A DNA stretch of 46,513 bases, taken from a virus. Numbering within the stretch: position 1 is the first letter of the stretch; every line of letters begins with the position of its first letter. Below, one piece after another: positions 2,574 to 44,089 of the stretch. The stretch lies in the IMG/VR virus record IMGVR_UViG_3300037452_000083, positions 1-46,513 of that record. One strand, written 5' to 3'. The translations under genes and the position numbers were made by a program. The notes beneath the pieces were generated by a model, which was given only the letters and a program-made list of their open reading frames with translations, was not told the origin of the DNA and ran no database searches.

Positions 2574-3716
2574 ATGAAAAACTTTTTGCGCGTTTTACGA
2601 AACGCCATTGGCAAGGGACTATATGCAACCTTTGTCGCGCTGGTAACGGTTTCGTTTGTTACCGGAACACTTGCTCTCGCAAACTACGCGGTTACGGTTG
2701 GCTCCGGTACGAATTTCGGCTCGGTTGTCGTATCGAGTGTTCACTACGCGCAACAACTGATTTGCGACCTGACGACGCCAAGCCAATGCGCTGCCGTCAG
2801 TGCGGCGGGCGCGGTCAAGGTTGATAACTCGGGTGTTACGCAGCCTGTGAGCGGAACCGTCACAGCCAACGCCGGCACCAATCTCAATACCTCGGCATTG
2901 TCCACATCTGCCAATCAAGTCACAAGTATATCGACGCTGACCGGATGGACTAGCGCGACCGCTGGCAACTCAACGCAGGCAATCGTCGCGAGCGGTGCCA
3001 CCACGGCCATCCTCGTTCAACTTGATCAGACCTCGACAATCAGCGCCGGTGCGGTCACCTTCGAGGGCACATTCGACGGTACGAATTGGGTTACGGTTCC
3101 GACTGCGCAAGTTCTCAACCCAAACACCTTTGCGCCGCTCACCAATCCCTACACACTGATTGCCTCAACCAATCAGCCATTCCTTATTCTAACGCAGGGC
3201 TACCAGCAGGTCCGTATCCGGCTGAGTACGGCGATCACCGGCAGCGCGACCGTGACGCCTTACGTCGCGATACTGCCGTACAACCCGACCATCGGGGCAT
3301 TGCTCAATCCGCTCGCCGCCGGGAGTGCAATCATCGGCAAGGTTGGCATCGACCAAACGACGCCAGGGACGACAAACGCGGTAGCTTATTCGGCGCTTGC
3401 CGAGACAGCAGCTTCATCCGGCGTCTTAAAGGGCTCAGCAGGGAACCTTTTTACTATTTCTGTAGATGCGGTCACAGCTACTACTGATCTTAAACTGCTA
3501 ATCTTCAATTCGGCGACGCTTCCGGCCGATGGCACCGTGACGCCCTATAAGTGCATTTCATTCAAAGGCGACGGTGTGCAGGCTTCATTCTTTTTGTCTT
3601 GGGGTGGGGGGCCGCCCTTGTCATTTGCGACTGGTATATCGGCTGCCGTGAGCAGCAACACAGCCTGCACGACTAAGGCCAACGTTACGGCTACGATCAG
3701 CGGGCAAGTGCAATGA
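2574..3716 (+). CDS. Putative tail or surface protein with N-terminal membrane signal
   Basis: A 380-residue protein with a basic N-terminus and a hydrophobic segment at about residues 18-36 (signal peptide or anchor). The mature part is a low-charge Thr/Ser/Val/Ala beta-rich chain, with PVSGTVTANAG near residue 90, a pattern seen in phage structural proteins that contain short beta repeats. Start is one base after the previous stop; the end overlaps the next ATG (ATGA). Likely a virion or surface-exposed accessory protein; no specific family could be assigned. Confidence 0.65.
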   Translation: MKNFLRVLRNAIGKGLYATFVALVTVSFVTGTLALANYAVTVGSGTNFGSVVVSSVHYAQQLICDLTTPSQCAAVSAAGAVKVDNSGVTQPVSGTVTANAGTNLNTSALSTSANQVTSISTLTGWTSATAGNSTQAIVASGATTAILVQLDQTSTISAGAVTFEGTFDGTNWVTVPTAQVLNPNTFAPLTNPYTLIASTNQPFLILTQGYQQVRIRLSTAITGSATVTPYVAILPYNPTIGALLNPLAAGSAIIGKVGIDQTTPGTTNAVAYSALAETAASSGVLKGSAGNLFTISVDAVTATTDLKLLIFNSATLPADGTVTPYKCISFKGDGVQASFFLSWGGGPPLSFATGISAAVSSNTACTTKANVTATISGQVQ

Positions 3717-4455: not shown

Positions 4456-5937
4456 ATGTTTAGATTGTTGGTGGCCGCTTTAGTTTTAGTAATCTTAAGC
4501 GCCCCTGGATATGCGGGCGGTCGCGGTGGCCACAGCACAACTTTCGATCCAAACTCCTATGGAGGCGGCTGGAAAAACTTTATCGCCGACTTTGGCGCGA
4601 CCTGTAACGGCGTCGCGTCGGACGATACTGCGCTGGCGAGTTGGGCAGCTTATGGCGTAGGGCTCGGTGCTGCACAGGCCAAGCTTTACATTCCGCCAGG
4701 ATCGAAATGTGTATTTAGTTCCGGCTTTCTTGCTTGCGACAATTCTACAGGAACTAGCGCAAGCGGTATCCAAAACGCAATCGTGTGGGGCTACGGCGCG
4801 ACGGCGACCAATCTGCGCAATGGTTGCTATACGTTCTATGACGATAATCAGCATTCGGCTCGCGTCGCGACCGTCAACAGCGGGGCGACCGCGGTAACGC
4901 TCGTCAATTCCGGCGATGCCTCGAAATTTGCGGTCGGGAACTGGATCGCTATTGCCGGTCTAAGTTTGCAGATTGGCAGTTTCCCGCTCAATTTTCAATT
5001 GATCGAATATAAAAGGATCAATGGGATTGTTGGGTCTGTGGTTTCTTTGAGCACACCGCTCACGTTCACCTATCTCTCGACGTGGCCGGTCATTGCACCC
5101 AACGACACGTCGCAGGACTACGGTGGTCCGGCAACGATCTATCTGATGGTGCCGAGCTTCGACACCAATCTTACGGTGTTTGGCTTAAGCTCGACGACGC
5201 CAGGCAACGAAGTGACGATGAATGGCCGCACCGTCATTGTGTACGATGCCAACTATGTCGGGTGTTCACCATCTGCCGGTTCCTCGATCTGGCTTTTCAA
5301 CGTGAACTGCGCCGGTACGGAAATCGACAAGGATATTGAAAATCTCTATCTCGTTCGCAGCGCCGCTCACAATAATTGGACGATGCAGAGCGCGTCAGTC
5401 ATCAATTTTTGGTGCCAGCAATGCACCGGCAATTTCAGCGGCACCGTGCAAAACACCTATATCAGCGGCGGCAGCGGAAATGTCAGCATAGGCCCGAGTG
5501 GGTACGGCGTCGCCCAAAGCCTGACGGTTAATGGCTCAGTCGTCCCGGCTGCTGTGAACGTCGCATTTGGCCCCGGAGTTCCAACGACAGATTTTTCTTT
5601 CAGTTCTGGCGTTCTCTCCATCGCCAATAATTCCGCGAACATTTACAAAGCCTATGCTTGGGGCATTCCCGGTCACAGCTACTATTTCGGCGATACGGAC
5701 GGGAGTAACAATTCATCGCCTCAGACCCATTTTACAATAAGTGCCGTGACGCAGGATGCAACCAATAGCTACTTTACCCTCAGTTCATGCAGTTGGGGTT
5801 CGTGTGCCGGGTCGTTGCCGACGCCGACTTGTGGGGCCAATCCATCTTGCGCGAATTATATCCCGTATGGGGCGCAGGCTATCACACAAGATCGGTTCAC
5901 TGGTCCGGCGAACCTAACGCAGTTTCAGGCTCCATGA
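4456..5937 (+). CDS. Secreted tailspike-like protein, pectate-lyase-type N-terminus
   Basis: The ATG at 4456 gives 493 residues; an in-frame GTG at 4438 would overlap the previous gene more. Residues 1-20 form a signal peptide (cleavage near GYA). Then comes NFIADFGATCNGVASDDTALASW, rendered here as the DFGA-x-x-NGV-x-DDT-A start motif of right-handed beta-helix pectate-lyase-3 domains. The body is rich in Gly/Asn/Ser and fits a parallel beta helix, as in tailspikes that bind or cut polysaccharide. The presence of a secretion signal on such a protein is odd. No catalytic residues could be assigned. Confidence 0.7.
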   Translation: MFRLLVAALVLVILSAPGYAGGRGGHSTTFDPNSYGGGWKNFIADFGATCNGVASDDTALASWAAYGVGLGAAQAKLYIPPGSKCVFSSGFLACDNSTGTSASGIQNAIVWGYGATATNLRNGCYTFYDDNQHSARVATVNSGATAVTLVNSGDASKFAVGNWIAIAGLSLQIGSFPLNFQLIEYKRINGIVGSVVSLSTPLTFTYLSTWPVIAPNDTSQDYGGPATIYLMVPSFDTNLTVFGLSSTTPGNEVTMNGRTVIVYDANYVGCSPSAGSSIWLFNVNCAGTEIDKDIENLYLVRSAAHNNWTMQSASVINFWCQQCTGNFSGTVQNTYISGGSGNVSIGPSGYGVAQSLTVNGSVVPAAVNVAFGPGVPTTDFSFSSGVLSIANNSANIYKAYAWGIPGHSYYFGDTDGSNNSSPQTHFTISAVTQDATNSYFTLSSCSWGSCAGSLPTPTCGANPSCANYIPYGAQAITQDRFTGPANLTQFQAP

Positions 5938-6090: not shown

Positions 6091-7749
6091 ATGAGTTTTC
6101 AGACAGACACGGACATCGGAAACCGCGCATTACAACATTGCGGTGTGCCGCGCATGGACCCGACGTTGGGTTTCAGCGAGGGCACCGAACGGGCAAACGA
6201 GGTCAGTTTTGCATATGGCAAGCTGAAAGTCGCCGAGCTGCAGCGGGCGATGTGGACGTTCTCGACCCGGCTTGCGCCGCTGCGGGCAATCGATTCCAAT
6301 ACCATGCTGCTGTCGCCCGCGCTGTGGCAATCCGGCACCACGTATTTCAAGGGGTCGCTGGTCGTCGACCAGAACAACACCATCTGGCAATCCCGCATCG
6401 TCAATAATCTCGGCAATCAGCCGGGCCAGCCCGGCGCCATTTTCGCATGGGAGCCGTATTTTGGGCCGCTGACGGTCACGGCCTATGACGGGACCAAAGT
6501 GTATTTTGCCGGTGAGGTTGTCTACACCGCGCCCGGTGACGGCACCTACAACGTCTACGTATCGTTGGTTAGCAACAACGCACTCGATCCGTCGCTGCCA
6601 AACCAATGGGCGGCCAACACTCAGTACATGCAGGGTCAGGTGGTCGAGCAGTTCCCGGCATGGGCAGTCGGGACAACCTATGCCGCGGGCGCAACCGTCA
6701 CCTACACGGACGGCAATACCTATTCATCGGTCACGTCGGGCAATGTCGGCCACATCCCGCCGTCGAGTTCAAGCAATTGGTGGCCGGTGCCGGTGCTGAT
6801 CCTGGCGTCGCTGTTGGTGCCGGCAGCTGGGCAGCCGCCGATCACGCCCGTATCCAGCCCGATCATCGAGTGGAATTTCGGTACGACCTATTCCATCGGC
6901 AGCTTCGCGCTGTTCGCGGGCAATGCCTATGTGTCGATCGCCAATGCCAATGCCGGCAATTATCCTAACGCGGCAGGCTCGACCTCGTGGGCGGTACTGT
7001 CCGGCGGCGTGCAGTACATGAGCCTTATCAATCTCAATACCAACAACAATCCAGCCAACGCGCCGACATTGTGGGCAGTCGGCACCACCTACGCGCTTAA
7101 TGCTCTGGTCGGTGCATCGGACGGCAATATCTACAAGTCGCTGGCAAACGGCAATGTCGGTAACAACCCAACACTGACACCAGCATCGTGGCTCAATACT
7201 GGCGTGCTCAATCCCTGGACCACGGTGTTCATATTAGGTCCGGGCAATCAGCAGTGGTTGCAGATCGGTGGCGCGGCTGCGCCTTCCGGTGTGGCGTTGG
7301 CGCAACTCGACATCGTTTGGCCGGTCGGTAGCGGGCCTTCATCGCAGTTCCAGACCAAGAATGTGTACCGGCTGCCGGCCGGCTTTCTGCGTGTGGCACC
7401 ACAGAATCCCAAGGGGGCAATTAATCCATGGCTTGGCGGCCCGGCCGGCAATGTGCAGAAAGATTGGACTTATAACGGACAGTATTTGGTGACGTGGGAA
7501 TACGGGCCAATCATCTATCGCTTCTGTGCCGATGTTGTAGACGTGACGCAGTTTGACCCAAATTTTTGTGAGGGACTAGCAGCAAAAATTGGTGTTGCTG
7601 TTTGTCCTACACTGACACAATCAAGCGCAAAGATAGCTGATATCCAAAAAGAATATAAACGAGTAATTGCCGAGGCCAGAACTCTCAATGCTATTGAAGC
7701 TGGCGCCGATGATCCGCCGGAAGATGAATATATCTCGGTGCGATGGTAA
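6091..7749 (+). CDS. Tail tubular protein A (T7 gp11-like adaptor) with carbohydrate-binding-like inserts
   Basis: A 552-residue head-to-tail adaptor. The N-terminus (IGNRALQHCGVPRM, then helices to about residue 65) and the C-terminus (about residues 475-540, FDPNFCEGLAAKIGVAVCP then helices with IQKEYKRVIAEARTLNA) match the T7 gp11/tail tubular A pattern. Between them lie about 400 extra residues with four or five repeats of the form W-x3-TTY-x2-G-x2-V-x-Y-x-D-GN-x-Y-x-S with NxGxxP and a closing W, which resemble chitin-binding CBM5/12 modules. T7 gp11 is only about 196 residues, so the adaptor carries a large surface-exposed insertion. It precedes the gp12-like gene by 3 bases. Confidence 0.8.
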   Translation: MSFQTDTDIGNRALQHCGVPRMDPTLGFSEGTERANEVSFAYGKLKVAELQRAMWTFSTRLAPLRAIDSNTMLLSPALWQSGTTYFKGSLVVDQNNTIWQSRIVNNLGNQPGQPGAIFAWEPYFGPLTVTAYDGTKVYFAGEVVYTAPGDGTYNVYVSLVSNNALDPSLPNQWAANTQYMQGQVVEQFPAWAVGTTYAAGATVTYTDGNTYSSVTSGNVGHIPPSSSSNWWPVPVLILASLLVPAAGQPPITPVSSPIIEWNFGTTYSIGSFALFAGNAYVSIANANAGNYPNAAGSTSWAVLSGGVQYMSLINLNTNNNPANAPTLWAVGTTYALNALVGASDGNIYKSLANGNVGNNPTLTPASWLNTGVLNPWTTVFILGPGNQQWLQIGGAAAPSGVALAQLDIVWPVGSGPSSQFQTKNVYRLPAGFLRVAPQNPKGAINPWLGGPAGNVQKDWTYNGQYLVTWEYGPIIYRFCADVVDVTQFDPNFCEGLAAKIGVAVCPTLTQSSAKIADIQKEYKRVIAEARTLNAIEAGADDPPEDEYISVRW

Positions 7750-35541: not shown

Positions 35542-35569
35542 GAGGGCGGGAGTTGGCGCCCCCGCCCTC
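35542..35569 (-). terminator. GC-rich hairpin between leftward units
   Basis: A perfect 9-bp stem (GAGGGCGGG / CCCGCCCTC) with a 10-base loop between the upstream leftward genes and a promoter. It has no T-run, so if it terminates it would need help, but its place fits a boundary. Confidence 0.5.
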
Positions 35570-36395: not shown

Positions 36396-36586
36396 GGCTG
36401 TTCCTGGCGGCACGACAAACAGAGCCAGCCGTGACTTTCGACACATTTCAGCGGGGCCAGTTTTCCGCATTTCCAGCAAAGTGGTCGAGGATCAAGACAG
36501 AAGGCGCGTCGCTTGAAGCTATCCCTAAAGCTCTGCGGCGTGTACGGCTTCGGATTGTCGAATGAGCCGAGTTTAGAACGGGACAT
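36392..36586 (-). CDS. Zinc-ribbon small protein
   Basis: 64 residues from ATG 36586, overlapping the upstream gene. CWKCGKLAPLKCVESHG and CLSC give a zinc ribbon at the C-terminus; N-terminus KPYTPQSFRDSFKRRAF. Possible nucleic-acid-binding accessory. Confidence 0.65.
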   Translation of the reverse strand: MSRSKLGSFDNPKPYTPQSFRDSFKRRAFCLDPRPLCWKCGKLAPLKCVESHGWLCLSCRQEQP

Positions 36587-36827
36587 AATCACCCTCCATA
36601 TCCAGATTGCCACGCTTGAGCGCATTGGTGGATTCGGCAAACCATGCCCGGAAGTCGGCGAAAACCAGCCGCACTTGCTCATGCAGCAATTCGCCGGCAT
36701 CCATTTCGGCATCCCCCTTCGCGGCTTCGCCGCTACGGCGGACAAGTCGCACCGCGTAGTTTGTGCCGCCGCTTACGGGCATTCGCGCCCGCCTAGCGTT
36801 GAGATAGTCGATTGAGTGGATGGGCAT
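36573..36827 (-). CDS. Small hypothetical protein
   Basis: 84 residues (IDYLNARRARMPVSGGTNYA, then helical AGELLHEQVRLVFADFRAWF). No family recognised. Sits one base after the next gene's stop. Confidence 0.65.
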   Translation of the reverse strand: MPIHSIDYLNARRARMPVSGGTNYAVRLVRRSGEAAKGDAEMDAGELLHEQVRLVFADFRAWFAESTNALKRGNLDMEGDYVPF

Positions 36828-37038: not shown

Positions 37039-37136
37039 GACTTGGTTTCCTTCGCTGTTAGTTTACCCGCCGAAGCATCTTGCGTAGGCGGGAGCCGAGC
37101 GCCATGCGCGGCTGTGGGGATGGGCATGGCGATCAC
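37035..37136 (-). CDS. Short basic/Pro-rich peptide
   Basis: 33 residues from GTG 37136 in GTGA overlap with the upstream gene. Contains the first of the two covarying stem-loops (37066-37092). Probability moderate because the sequence carries no recognisable fold. Confidence 0.45.
   Translation of the reverse strand: MIAMPIPTAAHGARLPPTQDASAGKLTAKETKS
37066..37092. repeat. Stem-loop repeat, copy 1
   Basis: CCCGCC (37066-37071), 15-base loop GAAGCATCTTGCGTA, GGCGGG (37087-37092). An inner GCA/TGC pair with a 3-base loop lies inside. See copy 2 at 37350. Confidence 0.85.
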
Positions 37137-37303
37137 CGCACCGGGCAAGAGTTGGTGAGGTCGCACATGTGGCCGAACGGATAGCCGTGCGCCTTTTCCC
37201 AAGCGTTGACCATCGGCACACCGAACAGGAGCGCCCACACGTTTAGGCCAAGTAGTGAGGCCAGCAGCGCCGACATGATCGTAATTCTGAGGGCGTAAGT
37301 CAT
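37133..37303 (-). CDS. Small exported or membrane protein
   Basis: 56 residues with one N-terminal hydrophobic segment (ITIMSALLASLLGLNVWALL) and a short polar end with two Cys (HMCDLTNSC). Signal-anchor or exported. Overlaps neighbours. Confidence 0.65.
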   Translation of the reverse strand: MTYALRITIMSALLASLLGLNVWALLFGVPMVNAWEKAHGYPFGHMCDLTNSCPVR

Positions 37304-37395
37304 CTGACGTTCCTTCGCATTAACCGGCTTGGGCCATCCAAACCGCTTGTCAGCCGTAGCATCTTGCGTAGGCTGATGGCTGTATTATGCATAGC
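37300..37395 (-). CDS. Short basic peptide, doubtful
   Basis: 31 residues from ATG 37395, overlapping the next gene (ATGA). A longer start at 37509 (69 residues) would overlap the zinc-ribbon gene by 80 bases. Contains the second stem-loop copy. Confidence 0.35.
   Translation of the reverse strand, partial: AMHNTAISLRKMLRLTSGLDGPSRLMRRNVR
37350..37376. repeat. Stem-loop repeat, copy 2
   Basis: TCAGCC (37350-37355), loop GTAGCATCTTGCGTA, GGCTGA (37371-37376). 14 of 15 loop bases match copy 1, while two stem pairs changed on both arms (C-G to T-A and C-G to A-T). Confidence 0.85.
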
Positions 37396-37676: not shown

Positions 37677-37715
37677 AAAAAGAAGCCCGGTTCGGCGGTG
37701 AGCTCGAACCGGGCT
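37677..37715 (-). terminator. Strong intrinsic terminator or attenuator
   Basis: A perfect 11-bp stem (AGCCCGGTTCG 37684-37694, CGAACCGGGCT 37705-37715), 10-base loop, then TCTTTTTG on the minus strand (37676-37683). It lies about 40 bases after a leftward promoter and directly before the first gene of that unit. Confidence 0.85.
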
Positions 37716-39068: not shown

Positions 39069-39358
39069 ACCGACATTCAATGGACCTCAATGATCCATCT
39101 ATGTTTCGCGCGGGCGGTCTGCTGCTGCCCGGCCCCGACCGGGTGCATATCCAGGTGGGCAAGAACCCGGACGGCTGCTGGTACATCGACCTGCGCGGCC
39201 CTACTGGCCCAACCGGCAACATCCGCTCGGTGATGACCCCGCTGCAGATGTTCAATCTGTGCACGCAGACGCTGAGCCACATGGGGTATGCGGTGGAGTT
39301 CAAGCCGCCGGGCAAGGATAGCTACGATGTGATGGTCGAGGAAGCTAACCGGGCGTAG
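39065..39358 (+). CDS. Small hypothetical protein between terminase genes
   Basis: 97 residues, AAGGA site, ATGA overlap with terS and one-base overlap with terL's GTG. Beta-rich N-half (GPDRVHIQVGKNPDGCWYI) and helical C-half (PLQMFNLCTQTLSHMGY). Unknown family; conserved position suggests a packaging accessory. Confidence 0.75.
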   Translation: MNRHSMDLNDPSMFRAGGLLLPGPDRVHIQVGKNPDGCWYIDLRGPTGPTGNIRSVMTPLQMFNLCTQTLSHMGYAVEFKPPGKDSYDVMVEEANRA

Positions 39359-40830
39359 TGGTAAAAATGGCACAGCCGAGCCTCGCCGAACTGAAAGAAA
39401 CCCTCGCAGTTCTTGAGGCGATCGACTACCGCAAGACTTATCAACAGTTTTTTTACTTCGAGCCGTATGAGAAGCAGAAGCAGTTCTTTGCGCTGGGCGC
39501 CACGAAACGGGAAAGACTGCTGACCGCCGGCAACCAGCAGGGCAAGACCCACGCGGGCGGCTACGAGACCACGCTGCACCTGACCGGTCTTTACCCCGAT
39601 TGGTGGCGCGGTCGCCGGTTTGTCCACGCCACCAAGGGCTGGATTTGCGGGGAGACCTCCACCGCGGTTCGGGACACCCAGCAAAAGAAGCTGTGCGGCG
39701 AGGCCGGTGTGGACGAGCTGTTCGGCACGGGGCTGATCCCGAAAGACAAGTTTGTCGACAAGCCCTCTTTGGCGAGAGGTGTGACAGATGCCTACGATAC
39801 TATTCAAGTCAGGCACGTCTCGGGTGGTATTTCTATCGGGCGATTTAAGTCATACGAGCAGGGACGAACAAAATTTCAAGGTGAAACCCTCGATTGGGTT
39901 TGGGACGACGAGGAATGCCCAATCGACATCTACTCCGAGCAGCTCGCGCGCATCACCGCTACCAAGGGGATCATCTACACCACCTTTACATCGATGCTGG
40001 GCGAGACCGCGTTGACGGATCGGTTTCACCGCGATCAGTCGGCCGACCGCGGCATGGTGCAGATGGGGCTGATCGACGCCAAGCACATCCCGGAGGCCGA
40101 ACATGCCACGATCATTGCTGGTTATCTGCCTCACGAGCGCGTGGCTCGTGTGTATGGCGGCATCATGCGGGGCGAGGGACTGGTTTTTACTACCCCGGAA
40201 GAAACCCTCAAGGAAGAACCGATTGTCTCCATCCCGCCATTTTGGGTTAAAATCTGGGGAATAGACTTTGGCATCGGCCACCCATTCGCGGCGGCATTAC
40301 TGCTGTGGGACAGAGACGAGGATGTGATCCATGTCCACACAACTATCCGAATGGCTGATGCACTGTCGATCGTGCATGCGGATTCTATCAAAAGAATTGG
40401 GGCTGATGTTCCAGTGGCTTGGCCACGAGACGGAACGGAGCGTGACAGCCACTCAGGTGAGCCGCTGGCATCAATCTACAAAAAGCACGGTCTCCACATG
40501 CTGCCCGAGCACGCCACCTGGCCGGAAGGCGGATTGAGCACCTATGCGGGCGTCAAGGAGATGGACGAGCGCATGAAAACCGGCCGCTTCAAGGTGGCCA
40601 ATCATCTCAATGAGTTCTTCGAGGAATACCGCAACTATCACTACAAGGACGGCAAGATCGTCAAGGTGCGCGACGATATACTGTCCAGCGTGAGAATTGG
40701 CCTGATGATGAAACGATTCGCCCGCTCGGTGCCGCTGGGCGGCTTCCGAGCCAAACGTAACGACCCGCGGATGCGGTTTGCCCGCGGCTCACCACTGCAT
40801 CCCGATGGGGATGGCAATATCTTCGGATGA
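39358..40830 (+). CDS. terL: Terminase large subunit
   Basis: 490 residues from GTG 39358 (ATG 39367 is an alternative). ATPase Walker A GNQQGKTH at 58-65, Walker B LDWVWDDE at 178-185, coupling motif TTFTSMLGET about 208-217, and nuclease start WGIDFGIGHP with D303. It pumps and cuts concatemeric DNA during head filling. Size is normal for Terminase_6/T7-like-virus large subunits of alphaproteobacterial podoviruses. Confidence 0.93.
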   Translation: MVKMAQPSLAELKETLAVLEAIDYRKTYQQFFYFEPYEKQKQFFALGATKRERLLTAGNQQGKTHAGGYETTLHLTGLYPDWWRGRRFVHATKGWICGETSTAVRDTQQKKLCGEAGVDELFGTGLIPKDKFVDKPSLARGVTDAYDTIQVRHVSGGISIGRFKSYEQGRTKFQGETLDWVWDDEECPIDIYSEQLARITATKGIIYTTFTSMLGETALTDRFHRDQSADRGMVQMGLIDAKHIPEAEHATIIAGYLPHERVARVYGGIMRGEGLVFTTPEETLKEEPIVSIPPFWVKIWGIDFGIGHPFAAALLLWDRDEDVIHVHTTIRMADALSIVHADSIKRIGADVPVAWPRDGTERDSHSGEPLASIYKKHGLHMLPEHATWPEGGLSTYAGVKEMDERMKTGRFKVANHLNEFFEEYRNYHYKDGKIVKVRDDILSSVRIGLMMKRFARSVPLGGFRAKRNDPRMRFARGSPLHPDGDGNIFG

Positions 40831-43329: not shown

Positions 43330-43769
43330 TGCAATTTGCCAGGATGGACAAGCACCAGCTTGCCGCCACATGGCAGGTGCGTTGCCTGAAAGCGGCCGAC
43401 CACAAGTTTGCATCGGTGATGCTGACCGTGTTCTATTTCGTCTACATGGAGCAGGCGCAATATCTGATGTGGCAGGCTTACGGCCGCGCAAGTGACTTGC
43501 GGTTCCCGTTCCACACTGGCGGCGCCACGGTCGTCAACTCGGGCCAGGTGGTATGCGACCTCAACATCGGCCGCGTTGGTGAGCGGTTCAAGGTGCGGCG
43601 CAACGTCAAGGTATTTGACACCGAGGGCGAGCTGATAAGAGAGTTCCGCAACCTTGCCGACAAGCTCAAGCTCACCGACACCGAACGCACCGACATGACC
43701 GACACCATAAGGAAATGGGTGGTGGCCGATCATCGCATCAATTATCTGGGCCAGCGGGTTGCGTCGTGA
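43329..43769 (+). CDS. Head-region hypothetical protein
   Basis: 146 residues from ATG 43329 (TGATG overlap with portal). Mixed alpha/beta (FASVMLTVFYFVYMEQAQYL, then VVCDLNIGRVGERFKVRRN). Between portal and Bbp19-like gene; probably a head-assembly accessory. Confidence 0.65.
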   Translation: MQFARMDKHQLAATWQVRCLKAADHKFASVMLTVFYFVYMEQAQYLMWQAYGRASDLRFPFHTGGATVVNSGQVVCDLNIGRVGERFKVRRNVKVFDTEGELIREFRNLADKLKLTDTERTDMTDTIRKWVVADHRINYLGQRVAS

Positions 43770-43801
43770 CTTGTCCGGCGTAGTCCAGAGGACGTAGACG
43801 G

Positions 43802-44089
43802 ATGCCGAGCGCCCACGAGGAAATGAACGAGAAGCGATATCTCAAGCAGGGATACCAGGAGATATTCGGCATCCCCGGCACCGCCAGCCACGCCGCATTG
43901 CAGGACTTTGCCAACTACTGCCACACCTTCGATATGACCGCCCGCAACCACGACGAGGCATTGATCGCGCTCGGGCTGCGCCGGGCGTTTTTTCACATCT
44001 GGCAGTATTTGAAACTTGAGCCGGATGAACTGACCCAGATATACCGTAGTCACGCCAATGGCCTCAATCGCAATCAAGGAGATGGGTAA
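43802..44089 (+). CDS. Bbp19-like phage protein
   Basis: 95 residues, GAGGAC upstream. YLKQGYQEIFGIPGTASHA and FANYCHTFDMTARNHDEAL match small Bbp19-type proteins that lie between portal and scaffold in Bordetella phage BPP-1 relatives. Function unknown. Confidence 0.7.
   Translation: MPSAHEEMNEKRYLKQGYQEIFGIPGTASHAALQDFANYCHTFDMTARNHDEALIALGLRRAFFHIWQYLKLEPDELTQIYRSHANGLNRNQGDG

Follow-up and report, generated by a model that had tools for sequence, protein, structure and literature searches.

A short CTTG-headed palindrome in a phage genome, probably a dispersed and mobile REP-like unit

T4-type PeSLs are cassettes that join an early promoter to a stem-loop. Both these cassettes (Arbiol 2010 and Comeau 2014, cited in PMC4177764 and PMC5931544) and the ESAS of cluster K phages (PMC3203893) are repeated stem-loops or inverted repeats near the starts of small phage genes, as is the case here. 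In ESAS, inverted repeats of 17 bp directly precede a 13-bp SAS (GGGATAGGAGCCC) and a start codon, and according to the authors the arms of these repeats do not support RNA pairing (PMC3203893). Among bacterial repeats, REPs and the ends of IS200/IS605 are processed by HUH enzymes, and the stem of group 2 REPs contains an irregular zone, as does that of the unit described below (PMC8266576, PMC6006769). Palindromic repeats tagged GTAG or CGTC, including those of Bradyrhizobium, belong to the same size class as our unit, and long self-complementary loops are reported for Bradyrhizobium GTAG-14 (PMC3733652). Br-REP1 and Br-REP2 of Bradyrhizobium japonicum are likewise intergenic palindromes of that genus, with sequences (CCGGAATCTCGAGATTCCGG and others) unrelated to our unit (PMC5082802).

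The stretch of DNA that we analysed (the window), a viral record of 46.5 kb, encodes a terminase of the podovirus type at 39358-40830; close relatives, the contigs L003 and L004 among them, were obtained via terminase searches. Its plus strand carries two 27-nt stem-loops, copy 1 at 37066-37092 (CCCGCC GAAGCATCTTGCGTA GGCGGG) and copy 2 at 37350-37376 (TCAGCC GTAGCATCTTGCGTA GGCTGA). We could reproduce their preliminary description in its essentials: the 6-bp stems pair perfectly, the loops agree in 14 of 15 bases, and two stem pairs differ between the copies, each compensated on both arms. Dinucleotide-preserving shuffles of the window never yielded such a hairpin pair (0/150), and no other pair with an equally long common loop and compensated stems was present in ∼1.05 Mb of terminase relatives. 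The supposed 15-nt loop in fact folds further, with a 3x3 internal loop that encloses an inner stem of 3 bp (GCA/TGC) capped by a triloop. Another 4 nt on the 5' side of the hairpin belong to the unit, because relatives lack exactly 31 nt; each insert is the 27-nt hairpin plus CTTG or TTTA, on the same side in both. The full units are therefore copy 1 at 37062..37092 (31 nt, plus strand, TTTA-CCCGCC-GAA-GCA-tct-TGC-GTA-GGCGGG), whose head is degenerate, and copy 2 at 37346..37376 (31 nt, plus strand, CTTG-TCAGCC-GTA-GCA-tct-TGC-GTA-GGCTGA). They were first placed within overlapping small genes, but they occupy gaps between small leftward genes (37038 to 36829 and 37303 to 37133), upstream of two of these short genes. 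A promoter-like site on the minus strand, near consensus in L003 and L004, has its −10 ∼8 nt before the start of copy 2; when the promoter pattern itself was used to look for relatives, these two were real and all other matches were chance. A terminator reading of the hairpins was ruled out, as no T-run follows them. Rfam families gave no match to the hairpins at gathering score, the one match being at chance level (E 8.9).

A covariance model of the two hairpins, heads left out, was run on the window without filters. This check, proposed at the outset with the stem left free, led to two further copies. The next matches in the window were weak, at 43774-43802 (E 0.14) and 36712-36742 (E 0.2), yet both loci bear the CTTG/CAAG motif, which lies outside the model. 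Copy 3 (43770..43802, plus strand, 33 nt, CTTG-TCCGGC-GTA-GTCC-aga-GGAC-GTA-GACGGA) sits between two rightward late genes, after the TGA stop at 43767-43769 and before the next ATG at ∼43801. An unbiased scan of 18-60-nt indels between the relatives recovered its insert independently. Copy 4 (36712..36746, minus strand, 35 nt, CTTG-TCCGCC-GTA-GCGGC-gaa-GCCGC-GAA-GGGGGA) lies within a small leftward open reading frame at 36573-36827, where it encodes LVRRSGEAAKGD, and it contains an exact CTTGTCNGNCGTAG match. The window thus holds four copies, in both orientations. Because copies 1-3 are intergenic, the argument that different reading frames exclude protein conservation is superfluous.

Comparison with the relatives shows that, at orthologous sites, closely related phages have either the entire unit or none of it, and that no target duplication accompanies it. 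At the copy 1 site, L004 lacks exactly 31 nt between flanks that are 96-97% identical. At the copy 2 site, L003 has an exact 31-nt empty site (between CAGCCA and CGGTC, minus strand), and L004 is empty at the same place. At the copy 3 site, L004 has a 33-nt gap (between GTCGTAA and TGCCG), and L003 has a compact TGATG stop/start overlap. None of the three clean sites shows a target duplication beyond one-base ambiguities. Conversely, and in line with the expectation that relatives would hold further copies, L004 bears one of its own at another site, 2609-2641, in a 33-nt insert absent from the window and L003. Because copy 4 aligns with its homologous L004 gene with no net indel, that alignment lends no support to copy 4 as a simple insertion. 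Insertion of only a 21-nt core into targets that were already palindromic would mimic covariation; this was considered too and is not supported, as the outer stem bases are likewise missing from the relatives.

The unit belongs to a wider family. Its members measure 31-35 nt. The CTTG head is followed by a 6-bp stem with the consensus TCCGCC/GGCGGA, and a symmetric internal loop (G[T/A]A / G[T/A]A) separates this stem from an inner one of 3-5 bp that ends in a tip of 3-4 nt; the commonest form is CTTG-TCCGCC-GTA-GCYTTRGC-GAA-GGCGGA. The family pattern required the CTTG head, which in part predetermines how conserved the head looks in the wider set. The raw count of pattern matches in IMG/VR is no evidence (56 loci versus 64 for a scrambled-head control pattern), and only the stem test separates the family from the control: both stems form in 26 of 48 distinct IMG/VR matches versus 0 of 59 scrambled-head controls. 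A second covariance model, built from 27 members and no window sequence, finds copy 2 (38.4 bits, E 9.9e-10), copy 3 (38.3 bits, E 1e-9), copy 4 (32.5 bits, E 6.3e-8), the copy 1 hairpin at 37067-37091 (20.7 bits, E 2.7e-4), and the L004 copy. It had been claimed that the stem changes between copies 1 and 2 are in themselves covariation and a sign of conserved pairing. On two copies alone this is weak, as 131 of 500 shuffles equalled the compensation, but the conclusion stands on other grounds. Across the family, 19 both-side cells were counted versus 5.2 expected, a value reached by 0 of 500 shuffles, and this family-wide covariation supports conserved base pairing.

Several other searches and loci belong beside this family. 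The exact 21-mer core had no match in IMG/VR, and its one match in a genome contig, in an Undibacterium oxidoreductase gene, is expected by chance. A loop-only pattern gave nine IMG/VR matches judged to be coding or chance, one of them a near-hairpin in an open reading frame of contig L016. Literature searches on the family's sequence words brought up only unrelated papers, e.g., primer lists, among the matches listed. In contig L005, positions 3552-3614 (minus strand) match CTTGTCCGCCG ... GGCGGA around a 46-nt interior (E 0.0076 with the second model), perhaps an element whose loop has received an insertion. Three element variants (L127 53-88, L132 2161-2196, and L144 5956-5985) lie within similar flanks (ttactggctgaggcggacccgcacgg), two with TCCGCC/GGCGGA stems and one with TCCGAC/GTCGGA; this looks like a compensated change or a replacement at a seemingly orthologous site. 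Two further copies (L142 198-227 and L158 4115-4144) share one AT-rich contig (IMGVR_UViG_3300031566_013099), where both are flanked by AATATT runs and have no Bradyrhizobium-like context.

Where else does the unit occur? Matches were found in 9 of 398 Pseudomonadota genomes, eight of them multi-copy, and the control pattern had none. Seven of the eight multi-copy genomes belong to a single family, and of 149 genomes from that family 17 have matches. Within the genus of one carrier (G314), 55 of 60 genomes hold 1-22 strict copies, again with no control matches; this copy number is low for a REP. We take this genus to be Bradyrhizobium because Br-REP1 is present 4-82 times in 9 of 10 carrier genomes tested, although Br-REP1 is reported from Rhodopseudomonas too. 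Most host copies are nested: 39 of 50 lie within the loops of four other palindromic repeats, versus 106 of 60122 control junctions. By their flanks, 19 are bordered by CATTGCGAG/GCAATCCA, 9 by GGTGGGC/GCCCACC, 7 by CTCTCCCCGC/GCGGGGAGAG, and 4 by CCCGGATG/CATCCGGG, under a strict classification (a permissive one had up to 16% false positives), and the flanking repeats appear to be CGTC-, GTAG-14-, and GTAG-3-like. The joined host flanks fold in 38 of 50 cases versus 644 of 1100, a weakly informative comparison. None of 40 viral copies is nested in those four repeats, and the phage copies are free-standing. Bradyrhizobium is a putative host of this phage.

How does the unit compare with the repeats described before? 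Like REPs, it is a short imperfect palindrome (27-31-nt hairpins, or 31-35 nt with the head) with a conserved tetranucleotide at its foot, it is dispersed with no target duplication seen, and its structure is kept while the stems vary. Unlike REPs, whose foot is classically GTAG or GTGG, it has CTTG (copies 2, 3, and 4 and the L004 copy) or TTTA (copy 1). It further differs in its symmetric internal loop, in its few copies per genome, in being mostly nested in other repeats while forming clean insertions in the phage, and in showing no association with a TnpA-REP/RAYT (Y1) gene. It sits in the loops of repeats resembling the GTAG and CGTC families and also stands alone, but its CTTG end tetranucleotide and its stems set it apart from both families. 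The CGTC repeats likewise are reported to have no transposase partner, and the published long-loop variants may partly overlap with our unit (PMC3733652).

Taken together, the stem-loops are in all likelihood copies of a short, dispersed, mobile, and non-autonomous CTTG-headed REP-like palindrome that the phage carries. Three readings had been offered, a phage RNA element, an operator-like cruciform, and a small transposed hairpin; the last fits best, because the units are discrete, have exact empty sites, recur in both orientations, appear elsewhere in L004, and have bacterial kin. The unit resembles REPs and IS200/IS605 ends in being inserted whole and without target duplication, in having a tetranucleotide at its foot, and in its conserved single-strand fold, and we infer from this that the element would move as a folded single strand. 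The host could provide, in trans, an enzyme of the HUH type or a similar one for single strands to do the cutting and joining, with the head at the hairpin foot acting as a guide or cleavage motif. The phage may have taken its copies from the DNA of its host, either while infecting it or in the prophage state. The stems would stay paired if folding is needed for recognition, perhaps aided by quasi-palindrome template switching; the compensation may come from either or both. Any effect on phage mRNA, with copy 2 at a leader start and copy 1 before a ribosome-binding site, would be a by-product. The enzyme is a matter of analogy, because no Y1/RAYT transposase is linked to the element: PF01797 had no match in the phage, and of 8 carrier genomes 5 had none and two others had only sub-cutoff matches. 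Some points count against a mobile palindrome, namely that copy 1 lacks the CTTG head, that no net indel marks copy 4 in the comparison with L004, that strict copies are few per genome, and that the contigs compared are metagenomic.

An RNA leader element of the phage was favored first. Such an element would make the mRNA more stable, keep the ribosome-binding site insulated, or serve as the binding site of a phage regulator, and it would be shuffled in regulatory cassettes like the T4 PeSLs. It is tempting to read copies 1 and 2 in this way, as both precede small leftward genes and copy 2 starts near the +1 of the promoter-like site conserved in L003 and L004. We demoted this hypothesis when copy 3 appeared, between rightward late genes, and we now consider it improbable: copy 4 is inside a coding frame, the same unit occurs in Bradyrhizobium chromosomes within other palindromes, and L004 keeps the promoter, the neighboring hairpin, and the ribosome-binding site without the unit at both places. 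Only copy 2 adjoins a promoter-like site, which differs from the PeSLs, and neither PeSLs nor ESAS are known as host repeats. No SAS-like sequence was found in the leaders of the window. A secondary role of copies 1 and 2 in leader RNA is possible alongside mobility.

The neighboring hairpin, in the same leaders, speaks for the leader reading. It has an 8-bp stem with an invariant AUGGC pentaloop and is kept in place on the minus strand of the window (37325-37345 and 37093-37113), L003 (8037-8057), and L004 (2643-2663 and 2365-2385); unless another hairpin comes between, it ends 7-8 nt before a GCGAAGGA ribosome-binding site. It covaries strongly, with 6 of 8 pairs changing on both sides among four distinct sequences, in a set that was gathered by loop and hence is partly selected; it is possibly a true phage leader RNA motif. 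Other hairpins were seen in these phages. In more distant terminase relatives, short leftward genes are preceded by leader hairpins that are duplicated but peculiar to those phages (L066 2592-2618 and 3332-3358, L073 7813-7841 and 8122-8150, and L081 2279-2303 and 3079-3103), and those of L066 and L073 have in common an AG/YGG internal loop, a GNRA-like tip, and a covaried inner stem. Hairpins of three phages conserve an (A/G)GTTGGCGCC loop on unrelated stems (window 35542-35569, L003 7648-7677, and L074 ∼5836-5855 and ∼6583-6602). A terminator-like hairpin of 11 bp (AGCCCGGWTCG) with the loop gcggtgagct and a minus-strand T-run is conserved in the window (37684-37715), L004 (2982-3013), and L005 (8301-8332).

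Could the element instead be ancestral, and deleted in L003 and L004 by palindrome excision? Replication is known to delete palindromes readily and precisely. However, several exact deletions would be needed, without obvious flanking direct repeats, and the compact stop/start overlap of the relatives at the copy 3 site (TAATG, TGATG) is the likelier ancestral state. L004 also has its own copy where the window and L003 are empty. We regard this scenario as somewhat less probable even than the leader element. About as doubtful, or slightly more so, is that the compensation arose without selection, by template switching that copies one arm of a quasi-palindrome onto the other, which would make covariation uninformative on RNA or DNA function. 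Correction of quasi-palindromes is an established source of mutation to which the copies are ideally suited, and it is compatible with a mobile palindrome; however, it leaves the common inner sequence, the head, the dispersal, and the empty sites unexplained. An operator or other protein-binding DNA site duplicated by the phage is the least credible reading: the unit is palindromic and two copies are near leftward genes, but its stem sequence varies with pairing kept, unlike double-strand operators, and copies lie far from promoters and in host repeats.

Returning to the mobile palindrome, we propose, tentatively and with rather more doubt than conviction, that CTTG-headed palindromes are a distinct, undescribed class. 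In Bradyrhizobium, its members would favor the tips of other hairpins as insertion sites; they would move without a RAYT partner and would travel between hosts in phages, and the free-standing copies with empty orthologous sites would record recent transposition.

The spread of REP-type palindromes is poorly understood, as many families lack a transposase and sites are seldom available in a clean state both before and after insertion. In the present case, closely related phages supply exact empty and filled sites for one 31-33-nt unit, and the host genus adds dozens of nested copies. Target choice, the missing target duplication, and the responsible enzyme thereby become directly testable. The case also carries a caution for others who study phage intergenic DNA, where compensated stem changes need not imply a regulatory RNA. 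Phages are plausible carriers of such repeats between bacteria.
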